Shown here piece by piece: positions 6,764 through 51,662 of a stretch of 64,000 nucleotides of DNA. Numbering within the stretch: the stretch's first letter is position 1; each line of letters begins with the position of its first letter. The stretch comes from Brevundimonas sp. SGAir0440 (GTDB lineage: Bacteria > Pseudomonadota > Alphaproteobacteria > Caulobacterales > Caulobacteraceae): the NCBI RefSeq assembly GCF_005484585.1, contig NZ_CP039435.1:1798001-1862000 (forward strand). Direction: 5' to 3'. The position numbers and the translations under genes are program-made. The notes beneath the pieces are model-generated. The model did no database searches, was not told the origin of the DNA, and was given only the letters and a program-made list of their open reading frames with translations.

Positions 6764-6854
6764 GGCAGCTCCGTCTGGTGGGAAATCAGGATGCGGCGAT
6801 TTACAGCCGTCACGGTTCGGCGTCTATGATCCGCAGCCTATGCTGGAGGAATTC

Positions 6855-8753
6855 ATGAACCGTCCGTCGCTCGCCGCCGCTGTCAGCACCCTGGCCCTCT
6901 TGTGGGCGGTCGCGCCGGCCGTGGCCCAGGACGCGCAGACGTTGCGCATCGGCGCCGACGTGAACGGCGCCCTGACGGACGGCGACGCGAAGGCGGCAGA
7001 TGACGAATATCGCTATGACGACTATCGGTTTGAGGCGCGCGCAGGGCAGCGGCTGGAAGCCACGCTGAGATCGGACGCTTTCGACGCCTATCTGGAAGTC
7101 TACGCCGATGGGGCTGCGGGCGAGCCGCTGGCGTCCGACGACGACGGATTGGGAGACGGCACGAATGCGCGGCTGCGCTTCACGCCGGAACAGGCGGGGA
7201 CCTATGTCCTGAGAGCCCGGACGCTGAGCGGACTGGACGGCGGCGACTATCGTCTGTCGTTGCAGGAACGCCCGGCGCCGCCGCGCGCGCCGCGACCCGG
7301 CGGCATTCGTGTCGGGGCGACCCAGAGCGGCGAACTGACGGCGCGCGATCCTGAGCAGGAAGACGGCGGCCGCTATGACGCCTACGCCTTCCGCGCCAAC
7401 GCCGGCGATCGGTTTGTGGTGACGTTGGATTCCGAGGCCTTCGATCCCCTGGTGCGGGTGGGGCGGATGAACGGTCCCGATTTCCTCGAGATCAGCTCGA
7501 ACGACGACGCGCCCGGCGGCGGGCTGAACTCGCGGCTGACCTTCACGGCGCCCACGGCCGGTGAATATGTGATCCGGGCCACGTCGCTGGAAGACGGGCT
7601 GGGTCGCTACGAACTGGGCTTGGCCGAGGCGCCGCCCGCGCCGCCGTCGAAGCCCATCGCGATCGGTGACGAGATCAAGGGTGAGCTGGGCTCGGACAGC
7701 GCCACGAACGACGGCGGCCAGCGCGCAGAAACCTATCGCTTCACCGGAACGAACGGCCAGCGCGTCGCGATCGAGATGAAGTCGAGCGAGTTCGACGCCT
7801 ATCTGACGCTTCGCCGCGCTTCGGACGATACGGTATTGGCTGAAGATGATGACGGCGCCGGCTCGGGCACCGACGCCCGCATCGCGCGCACCCTGGACGC
7901 CGACGGCGACTACATCATCGAGGCGCGCGGGTTCAGCGACGAGGCCGAGGGCGATTATACGCTGAAGCTGACCGAAACCGCGCCGCCGCCGCCGCCGACC
8001 ACGGCGACCCTGGGTCAAACCGTGGAAGGCGAGATCACCGACGAGGATCCCCAGGGCGACGATGGTAAACGCTATGACGCCTATGTCTTTTCCGGAACGG
8101 AAGGCCAGCGTGTCCAGGCGATCCTGCGGTCCGGCGACTTCGACGCCTATCTGGAGATCGGCAAGGCCGACGGTGAGTTCGAGGCCCTGGCCAGCGATGA
8201 CGACGGCCTGGCGGAGGGCACGGATTCGCGGCTGAACTTCACCCTGCCTTCGGCCGGGAACTATGTGGTCCGCGCCATGCCGCTGGATGCGGAGGGCAAG
8301 GGCCTTTATTCGCTGGAACTGCTGGATCGCGGGCCAGAGCCCAAGCCCGGCAGCCTGCTGATCGGGTCGACCGTGCGCGGAACCCTGTCGAACAGCGCTG
8401 CGCTCAGCGACGAAGGCGCCTTTTTCGACGCTTACCGCTTCCAGGCCAAGAAGGACGAGAAGCTGCGTCTGACGATGGTGTCGAACGCCTTCGACTCCTT
8501 CATCGACCTGGGCAAGGAAGACGAAGACGGCGATTTCACCAGCTTGGCGACCGACGACGACAGCCTGTCCGACGCGCATGCCAAGCTGGATTGGACCGCG
8601 CCGGACGACGGCTGGTACGTCGTGCGCGCCCGCGCCTATGGGCCCAACCAAATGGGCGCCTATGCCCTGACGGTCGAGCGCCAACCGGCCGGCGCATCGA
8701 CCTCGGCCCGCGATGATGCGCCCGCCGCGATGGCGCCCAAGTCGGGCGGCTGA
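6855..8753 (+). CDS. Secreted protein built of five PPC (pre-peptidase C-terminal-like) repeats
   Basis: A 632-residue protein with a clean signal peptide (cleavage near VAQDAQ, about residue 25) and then five tandem domains of about 115-120 residues joined by Pro-rich linkers: roughly 25-138, 142-262, 265-377, 382-493 and 500-612. Each repeat carries Y(D/E)AYxF near its start, FDAYLE or a variant in the middle, an acidic DDDG..G(T)(D/N)(A/S)RL loop, and a G.YV(I/V)RA strand. These are the hallmarks of PPC beta-sandwich domains, usually found as appendages of secreted peptidases. No peptidase domain is present here. The ribosome binding site GGAGGA fixes the start at ATG 6855. Probable periplasmic or extracellular binding protein; the ligand is unknown. 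Confidence 0.85.
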   Translation: MNRPSLAAAVSTLALLWAVAPAVAQDAQTLRIGADVNGALTDGDAKAADDEYRYDDYRFEARAGQRLEATLRSDAFDAYLEVYADGAAGEPLASDDDGLGDGTNARLRFTPEQAGTYVLRARTLSGLDGGDYRLSLQERPAPPRAPRPGGIRVGATQSGELTARDPEQEDGGRYDAYAFRANAGDRFVVTLDSEAFDPLVRVGRMNGPDFLEISSNDDAPGGGLNSRLTFTAPTAGEYVIRATSLEDGLGRYELGLAEAPPAPPSKPIAIGDEIKGELGSDSATNDGGQRAETYRFTGTNGQRVAIEMKSSEFDAYLTLRRASDDTVLAEDDDGAGSGTDARIARTLDADGDYIIEARGFSDEAEGDYTLKLTETAPPPPPTTATLGQTVEGEITDEDPQGDDGKRYDAYVFSGTEGQRVQAILRSGDFDAYLEIGKADGEFEALASDDDGLAEGTDSRLNFTLPSAGNYVVRAMPLDAEGKGLYSLELLDRGPEPKPGSLLIGSTVRGTLSNSAALSDEGAFFDAYRFQAKKDEKLRLTMVSNAFDSFIDLGKEDEDGDFTSLATDDDSLSDAHAKLDWTAPDDGWYVVRARAYGPNQMGAYALTVERQPAGASTSARDDAPAAMAPKSGG

Positions 8754-8782
8754 TCGACCTGCGAGGTTGCCAAGCGCGGGAA

Positions 8783-8930
8783 GCGGCGTGTAGAGAGCCG
8801 CCTCCTGTTGGGGAGTAGCTTCCGGCATTCGTCGTCGGGATCGCGTCAACATACTCGCGCTTCGGCGCGTGGCGCGATCAGCGGAACCACCGCCTAGCGA
8901 GACCAGCGTGTCCTGACGCCGCGACCGGCC
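8783..8930 (+). ncRNA. yybP-ykoY (Mn2+) riboswitch in the mntP leader
   Basis: The leader of mntP contains the three conserved strands of the yybP-ykoY class in order: GGGGAGTAGC at 8810-8819, GTCAACATACTCGC at 8844-8857, and GCGAGACC at 8897-8904. A perfect 7-bp helix can close the element (8783-8789 with 8916-8922). This class senses Mn2+ and is commonly found upstream of mntP-type exporters, so the context agrees. Downstream, CGACCGG (8922-8928) can pair with CCGGTCG (8954-8960) just before the start codon. That could form the expression platform by hiding the weak ribosome binding site (inference). The exact ends are approximate. Confidence 0.88.
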
Positions 8931-8971
8931 GGTGCAGGACCGCTGTCACGCGTCCGGTCGAGTGCTGTTTC

Positions 8972-9544
8972 ATGACCCCAGGCGCCATCGCCATTCTCTC
9001 GCTCAGCATGTCCACGGACGCCTTTGCGGCCGCCGTCGGACGCGGGGCGTCGCATCGACCCGCCGTCAAGGACGCCGTCAAGGCCGGTCTGGTCTTCGGC
9101 GTGATCGAGGCGATCACCCCTCTGATCGGCTGGGGACTGGGCATCATCGCCGCCGGCCTGGTCGAAAAGGTCGATCACTGGATCGCCTTCACCCTGCTGC
9201 TGATCGTCGGCGGCAAGATGATCTGGGAAGGCGTTCAACCTCGCGGCGCGGAGGAGGATGAGGCGCCGCGCCGGTCCGGCCCCTGGGCGCTTGTGGCGAC
9301 GGCGGTCGGCACCAGCATCGACGCTGCGGCCGTCGGCGTGGGTCTGGCCTTCATCGGCGCCAATATCTGGGTGATCGCCGCCTCGATCGGCTTCACCACC
9401 TTCGTGTTGACCACCATCGGAATGCTGATCGGCAAGGCCGTAGGCACGCGCTTCGGCAAGACGGCCGAGATCATCGGCGGCATCGCCCTGATCGGTCTAG
9501 GCTCGGCCATCCTGCTGGAACACCTGGGCGTTCTTGGCGGCTGA
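8972..9544 (+). CDS. mntP: Manganese efflux pump MntP
   Basis: A 190-residue integral membrane protein with six predicted TM helices, the size and layout of MntP (DUF204). The two related halves each carry the family's acidic signature: SMSTDAFAAAVGRG near the N-terminus and GTSIDAAAVGVGLA at about residues 110-123. Both place an Asp inside a helix, where MntP needs it for Mn2+ export across the inner membrane. There is no strong ribosome binding site before ATG 8972, which suits control by the leader riboswitch. It has no partner gene: the hut cluster begins convergently seven bases after its stop. Confidence 0.95.
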   Translation: MTPGAIAILSLSMSTDAFAAAVGRGASHRPAVKDAVKAGLVFGVIEAITPLIGWGLGIIAAGLVEKVDHWIAFTLLLIVGGKMIWEGVQPRGAEEDEAPRRSGPWALVATAVGTSIDAAAVGVGLAFIGANIWVIAASIGFTTFVLTTIGMLIGKAVGTRFGKTAEIIGGIALIGLGSAILLEHLGVLGG

Positions 9545-51393: not shown

Positions 51394-51435
51394 CGCGCCA
51401 CTTCTTTTATCGATGTCTTAAAAAGAAGTGGCGCG
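51394..51435 (-). other. Hairpin overlapping the 3' end of the first tRNA-Asp
   Basis: CGCGCCACTTCTTTT (51394-51408) and its exact complement at 51421-51435 form a 15-bp stem with a 12-base loop. In the leftward transcript the 5' arm begins with the last seven bases of the tRNA (including CCA). A TTTTT tract follows six bases after the stem, so it may also terminate transcription. Confidence 0.68.
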
Positions 51436-51505
51436 AGTGACGGGGCTCGAACCCGCGACCTCCGGCGTGACAGGCCGGCACTCTAACCAACTGAGCTACA
51501 CCCGC
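51429..51505 (-). tRNA. tRNA-Asp (GTC), downstream copy
   Basis: A 77-base tRNA read on the minus strand: acceptor GCGGGTG with CACTCGC (one G-T pair), D arm AGCTCAGTTGGTTAGAGT, anticodon stem-loop CCGGC-CTGTCAC-GCCGG with anticodon GTC, T arm GGGTTCGAGCCC, discriminator G and encoded CCA. Identical to the copy at 51586-51662, in the same orientation. Confidence 0.97.
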
Positions 51506-51558: not shown

Positions 51559-51591
51559 GCGCCACTCTTCTATTTCTAGAAAGAGTGGCGC
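51559..51591 (-). other. Hairpin overlapping the 3' end of the second tRNA-Asp
   Basis: GCGCCACTCTT (51559-51569) and its complement AAGAGTGGCGC (51581-51591) form an 11-bp stem with an 11-base loop. As in the other copy, the 3' end of the tRNA supplies one arm. The sequence beyond CCA differs from the other copy, yet pairing is kept. Confidence 0.65.
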
Positions 51592-51662
51592 GAGTGACGG
51601 GGCTCGAACCCGCGACCTCCGGCGTGACAGGCCGGCACTCTAACCAACTGAGCTACACCCGC
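51586..51662 (-). tRNA. tRNA-Asp (GTC), upstream copy
   Basis: The same 77-base tRNA as the copy at 51429-51505, with acceptor GCGGGTG, anticodon loop CTGTCAC (GTC) and encoded CCA. It is transcribed first on the minus strand, 80 bases ahead of the second copy. It probably shares a promoter in 51663-51758. Confidence 0.97.

Follow-up and report, generated by a model that had tools for sequence, protein, structure and literature searches.

A Mn2+ riboswitch leader before mntP in Brevundimonas: aptamer, competing helices P1 and P5, and a possible ON-state role for helix S2

Among the described manganese-responsive leaders and their relatives, three come closest to the one considered here. Passages of the report on Escherichia coli mntP describe a ribosome site that is masked when Mn is absent and exposed when it is present, and they place the gene under MntR as well (PMC11647493). 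For the E. coli alx element, sections of the published account attribute the translationally active form to pairing of the loop of hairpin C with that of hairpin D (PMC3874183). In Lactococcus lactis yoaB, according to part of the source, the 3' segment of helix P1.1 is common to the aptamer and to the OFF structure, which is a terminator (PMC11087558).

The present analysis concerns a leader in Brevundimonas sp. SGAir0440, within a window of 64,000 nucleotides (contig NZ_CP039435.1, positions 1,798,001 to 1,862,000, forward strand), and all coordinates below count from the first letter of that window. The leader is unexceptional within a riboswitch class that is already well known, so the locus itself offers only modest discovery value. 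The anatomy of the expression platform could be worked out by comparing leaders, and the comparison names the strands by which a proteobacterial Mn2+ riboswitch may act on translation, many genera supplying self-complementary variants of them.

The aptamer, its gene and their surroundings

A scan of the whole window with Rfam places model RF00080 (the Mn2+ riboswitch, yybP-ykoY) at 8801-8944 on the + strand with 58.9 bits (E 6e-13), above the gathering score of 45 bits, and this is the single match in the 3.15-Mb genome. The covariance-model check proposed with the original prediction, which had read the segment as a riboswitch of this class in front of a Mn exporter gene, therefore came out in its favour, and the aptamer match together with a PF02659 open reading frame downstream bears out the pairing of class and gene. 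By its sequence the mntP leader is a member of the known Mn2+ riboswitch class. The 3' boundary of the Rfam match is loose, the aptamer proper finishing with the 3' strand of P1 at about 8907. As had been claimed, three conserved strands and a closing helix occur in order, namely GGGGAGUAGC, GUCAACAUAC and, at 8897-8904, GCGAGACC, with GUUGG/CCAGC as P1; the first two are closed by P1 and both consensus strands also stand in the printed Rfam alignment. P1 is paired in all 55 distinct mntP leaders of the genus, where it is so nearly invariant that covariation cannot be judged. The features of the locus are as follows.

8767-8795, + strand: probable promoter by eye, -35 TTGCCA at 8767-8772 and -10 about TGTAGAG at 8789-8795
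8801-8944, + strand: RF00080 Mn2+ riboswitch match
8807-8811, + strand: P1 5' strand GUUGG (switch helix), pairing with 8903-8907
8810-8819, + strand: aptamer loop strand GGGGAGUAGC, kept across the genus
8845-8854, + strand: aptamer loop strand GUCAACAUAC, kept across the genus
8897-8902, + strand: aptamer 3' strand GCGAGA, aligned across the genus, which an extended P5 can pair too
8903-8907, + strand: P1 3' strand CCAGC, common to P1 and P5
8904-8915, + strand: 5' strand of P5 (anti-P1), the CAGCG-ug-UCCUG region, pairing with 8935-8945 and supported by swap tests
8922-8928, + strand: S2a, CGACCGG, in the P5 loop
8935-8945, + strand: 3' strand of P5, CAGGACCGCUG, from the sequence and the genus alignment
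8954-8960, + strand: S2b, CCGGUCG, 11 nt 5' of the start codon
8960-8962, + strand: weak Shine-Dalgarno GAG; many relatives have GGAG within GGYGGAG
8972-9544, + strand: mntP, MntP-family Mn exporter of 190 aa (PF02659, NF008546)

The mntP reading frame begins 28 nt past the end of the Rfam match. It scores 167.6 bits against PF02659 (cut-off 24.4) and 190.2 bits against the NCBIfam MntP equivalog NF008546, under the cut-off of 214, and is therefore named only as a member of the MntP family; its product is 98% identical to MntP of Brevundimonas vesicularis strain S00192. Upstream, the gene at 6846-8750 encodes a protein with four stretches of PF04151 (pre-peptidase C-terminal domain) and no further Pfam domain at E <= 0.001. 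Elsewhere in the window two tRNA genes (51432-51505 and 51589-51662), 83 bases apart, are identical in Rfam score and in aligned sequence.

Compared by eye, most of 22 mntP leaders of the genus carry boxes resembling TTG(C/A) and (C)TAGAG/TAAAG that stand about equally far from the aptamer, and the transcript would be expected to start near 8800; a strict sigma-70 scan of the leader returned no promoter. Before mntP the weak GAG is the only sequence resembling a ribosome site, in agreement with the original prediction, which had seen no clear one. A search of 8650-9050 for terminator-like sites gave none, which agrees with the earlier remark that a clear T-tract is lacking and supports the view that translation is a likelier target than intrinsic termination.

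Distribution of the riboswitch and an alternative operator

RF00080 is found in 91 of 101 Brevundimonas genomes at E <= 0.001, in 76 of them above the gathering score; the corresponding counts are 155 of 199 genomes for the family and 57 of 385 for the class. The 104 loci of the genus (L001-L104) comprise 60 before mntP and 44 before gdt1 (GDT1/UPF0016), the genes themselves being present in 62 and 46 of the 101 genomes respectively, and the window's genome has mntP only. Among 115 family and class loci, 94 precede GDT1, 2 precede MntP and 19 neither. One of these 19 (L123) stands before a sodium/calcium exchanger gene (PF01699), most of the others (L134, L146, L206 and more) look alike by eye, and at L221 the riboswitch precedes a cation-efflux gene (PF01545). 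The 44 gdt1 loci of the genus, which lie between L003 and L090, mostly use TTG as start codon, and in several gdt1 leaders an insertion of repeat-like sequence precedes the conserved GCAAGACC strand. The genus scan missed one mntP leader with a degenerate aptamer (L108, genome G066; 19.9 bits, E 0.067).

Five genus genomes (G034, G052, G059, G078, G091) have mntP without an RF00080 match, and a permissive Rfam scan before mntP in these five found no riboswitch; a palindrome close to TTCAGYCTNGGCTAAC lies before the gene, and we take it to resemble an MntR box. In six genomes such a palindrome replaces the riboswitch before the exporter (mntP at L105, L106, L107, L109 and L111, gdt1 at L112). 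A DtxR-family regulator (PF02742) was found, among 20 genomes tested, in those five only; over the genus it occurs in 12 of 101 genomes, the same five and seven whose riboswitch is on gdt1, and in none of those with the riboswitch before mntP. A search of the window's genome for the DtxR family gave no match. Given the family and the box, MntR would be the regulator in the palindrome genomes. In two of the palindrome genomes a second copy is found at a DUF2061 membrane-protein locus (L235 and L236, assigned by PF09834 for L236 and by eye for L235), making the DUF2061 gene a candidate member of the same regulon as the palindrome-bearing exporter. Brevundimonas thus offers a natural comparison, in which mntP carries either the riboswitch or a DtxR/MntR-like operator.

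The anti-P1 hairpin P5 and helix S2

Four sets of leaders were compared. The 60 mntP loci of the genus, less 5 duplicate leader strings, gave 55 leaders, with L094 and L071 re-anchored; the 44 gdt1 loci of the genus formed the second set. From the 94 family and class GDT1 rows, four were removed as distal query matches only (L148, L149, L159, L166) and one for want of the motif (L181), leaving 89; in 14 family/class rows the first aligned codon is no start codon, so that start spacing there is approximate. The fourth set, of mainly gamma- and betaproteobacterial mntP, began with 65 loci, and 57 were analysed after the 8 without an aptamer motif had been dropped; among L268-L276 the 65 also take in a few loci from Brevundimonas, Caulobacterales and sphingomonads. 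In the swap test for P5 each P1 3' strand was offered its own downstream region or that of another leader, with significance from permutations that ignore relatedness except in the non-redundant step. Only distinct platforms entered the swap tests (49 genus mntP, 44 genus gdt1 and 84 family/class gdt1).

The CCAGC strand of P1 can alternatively pair with GCUG some 40 nt downstream, forming hairpin P5, so P5 and P1 compete for the same strand. The original account had left out this anti-P1 hairpin. The 3' strand of P1 is thereby common to an alternative helix, as is looked for in a translational switch, and the exclusion of P1 by P5 is what would be expected of the class, since part of PMC11087558 describes the P1.1 segment of L. 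lactis as common to the terminator. Among the 55 genus mntP leaders, the P5 pair 8908-8941 is GC in 36, AU in 18 and GU in 1; higher pairs show several two-sided changes with part of the set mismatched, 33 to 46 of the 55 being paired. Own partners did better than swapped ones, at -16.2 against -13.6 in genus mntP (n 49) and -14.0 against -11.1 in family/class gdt1 (n 84), a difference equalled in 0 of 2000 permutations each time; the genus gdt1 set alone gave a weak signal (93/2000). With non-redundant leaders the values were 6/5000 for 6 genus mntP and 0/5000 for 24 family/class gdt1 leaders, and 6 genus gdt1 leaders gave no support (1293/5000). P5 thus looks real in most sets, judged by these comparisons, and looks to exclude P1.

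The two halves of the hairpin originally proposed, CGACCGG at 8922-8928 and CCGGTCG at 8954-8960, are present in the sequence and are, by alignment, helix S2 of the conserved module, which joins the P5 loop to the segment just 5' of the ribosome site. Considered in isolation, the 7-bp helix is close to what chance gives: among 2000 dinucleotide shuffles of 8902-8971, 125 had a helix of equal length ending 8-16 nt before the start codon, and 432 had one anywhere. Within the genus mntP set the only S2 pair that varies informatively is 8924-8958 (AU 26, GC 20, AC 7, other 2 of 55), and the tree reduces its changes to about 1-3 independent events. Swapping S2 partners within that set gave no signal (938/2000; non-redundant 3575/5000), since the core, CCGG, is a palindrome that hardly varies. 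In the non-redundant sets from elsewhere S2 is well supported, with values of 0/5000 for 24 family/class gdt1 leaders, 60/5000 for 6 genus gdt1 leaders and 0/5000 for 11 mntP leaders, mainly of gamma- and betaproteobacteria. Both P5 and S2 recur in other Proteobacteria, and the distance from the end of S2b to the start codon is steady, the four sets having medians of 11.5, 12, 14 and 12 nt and E. coli mntP a distance of 12 nt. Overall, comparison across leaders demonstrates the aptamer, P1, P5 and S2 as sequence elements of the mntP leader. No description of a common P5/S2 layout was found in the accessible part of the open-access literature searched.

Two further pairings were considered and not adopted. 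A hairpin P6, between the 3' strand of P5 and nucleotides before S2b, has two near-universal pairs and a third in 35 of 55 genus mntP leaders, with almost no two-sided change. Pairing of the CCGCC of P4 with GGYGG as a mask of the ribosome site involves two near-invariant partners, and L093 is without the pairing.

The state that holds S2 and the known systems

S2 topologically crosses P5, and it has no strand in common with P1, with which it is compatible; S2 may therefore belong to the Mn2+-bound state. The S2/P5 geometry, scored in 225 of 228 leaders, points the same way. When P5 is extended into GCGAGA its median length across the four sets is 18-21 bp, which leaves 1-2 nt before S2b (2 nt in the window, 3 nt in E. 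coli mntP), and in 182 of the 225 leaders P5 has 12 bp or more and is separated from S2b by 4 nt or fewer. If this extension holds, so short a linker would keep S2 from forming as long as P5 stays closed. The steric case is weakened, since the control fractions are high: against 0.81 observed, the geometry was found in 0.60 of leaders with the last 12 nt shuffled and in 0.46 when the whole stretch separating S2a from S2b was shuffled. Nested folding, of the leader as such and with P1 forced or forbidden, showed no difference in access to the ribosome site, and the mean energies with P1 forced and forbidden were near-equal (-88.2 vs -90.8 in genus mntP). When the states themselves are forced, the Shine-Dalgarno is open slightly more often with P1 and S2 than with P5 (20 vs 12 of 47, 13 vs 9 of 44, 25 vs 16 of 84 and 12 vs 11 of 48 folds in the sets). 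In folds with P5 forced, no single conserved segment dominated as the partner of the ribosome site; in genus mntP, 43% of the ribosome-site region is paired to the central part of the aptamer, as CCGCC/GGYGG by eye.

From these observations we consider it probable that the riboswitch turns mntP translation on at high Mn2+ through an exchange of P1 and P5, with S2 leaning to the ON state; Mn2+-ON control of translation as such is likely by the E. coli precedent. At low Mn2+, P5 would form and dismantle P1. At high Mn2+ the metal-bound aptamer would take CCAGC into P1 and P5 would lose its lower half, and S2 may then form together with P1 and leave the ribosome site and the adjacent AUG free. 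That S2 is a helix of the ON state, rather than the lock originally proposed, is a leaning of modest confidence, suggested by the compatibility of P1 and S2, the geometry of P5, the forced folds, the active form of alx and the layout of E. coli mntP. More broadly, the mntP and gdt1 leaders of Proteobacteria could possess one common three-strand platform, in which a long P5 takes the P1 3' strand and GCGAGA at low Mn2+, and P1, held by Mn2+, frees the P5-loop strand so that S2 becomes the ON helix, the platform perhaps being kept while the exporter family was exchanged; taken as a whole, this wider proposal is tentative and somewhat doubtful.

The original prediction had made the CGACCGG/CCGGTCG hairpin an off-state lock beside the start codon, which Mn2+ binding would open. 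S2b does abut, and in the window's species partly overlaps, the weak ribosome site; S2 is conserved at a constant spacing from the start codon, the alignment giving it 7 bp in the window's clade, 6 in the CACCGG/CCGGUG relatives and 5 in L068 and L080; and the hidden ribosome site of E. coli mntP without Mn, as passages of PMC11647493 describe it, is what a lock would produce. Against this, capture of P1 by Mn2+ would not directly open a helix that contains no P1 strand, and removal of P5 would, if anything, let S2 form; moreover, in most relatives S2b ends beside the Shine-Dalgarno, short of covering the ribosome site, and the 7-bp helix alone is near chance in the shuffles, so that a lock appears rather unlikely. 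A different arrangement would hold S2 and P5 together without Mn2+ as an H-type pseudoknot that blocks the 30S subunit, until P1 unzips the base of P5 and the pseudoknot collapses. Within the P5 loop, S2a is separated from the 3' strand of P5 by medians of 0-1 nt, as a coaxial pseudoknot would have it, and the linker to S2b is 8 nt when P5 is counted from the P1 strand only (genus mntP median 8; window 8); however, with P5 extended into GCGAGA the linker falls to 1-3 nt, too short for a helix of 18-21 bp, an objection itself tempered by the high shuffle controls, and we regard the pseudoknot as improbable.

The regulated step might also be, in large part, Rho-dependent termination in the untranslated leader, relieved by coupling to translation, as reported for the E. 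coli mntP riboswitch in passages of PMC11647493 and in keeping with the want of an intrinsic terminator in 8650-9050; such a mechanism can co-exist with translational control, and as the principal step it seems unlikely. That the hairpin is a functionless inverted repeat, fallen together by chance in GC-rich DNA, would fit the 125 of 2000 shuffles and the negative S2 swap test in genus mntP. Yet the helix recurs at its position with different self-complementary sequences in gdt1 leaders of the family and class and in mntP leaders of mainly gamma- and betaproteobacteria (0/5000 each), which leaves chance a very improbable explanation.

How, then, does the Brevundimonas leader stand beside the known systems? 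With L. lactis yoaB it shares the use of the P1 3' segment in an alternative helix, as described in part of the source; the L. lactis switch is transcriptional, its OFF form being an intrinsic terminator, whereas none was found in 8650-9050 here. In E. coli alx, by the sections of its account cited above, the PRE has a hairpin that re-uses the P1 3' strand and a loop pairing downstream in the active form, much like P5 and S2, so that hairpin C may correspond to P5 and stem C/D to S2; in alx, unlike here, the downstream partner is in the loop of hairpin D, well 5' of the ribosome site, and the element was studied as pH-responsive. A further counterpart is E. coli mntP, whose riboswitch (L228, 962-1058) scores 41.6 bits, under the RF00080 gathering score of 45. 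There the P5 loop is much longer and has an inner hairpin, unlike that of Brevundimonas, and E. coli has MntR, whereas the window's genome gave no DtxR-family match. Gene family and aptamer class are nevertheless the same, and the E. coli leader has the same P1 and P5 and an S2-like helix that ends 12 nt before the AUG.
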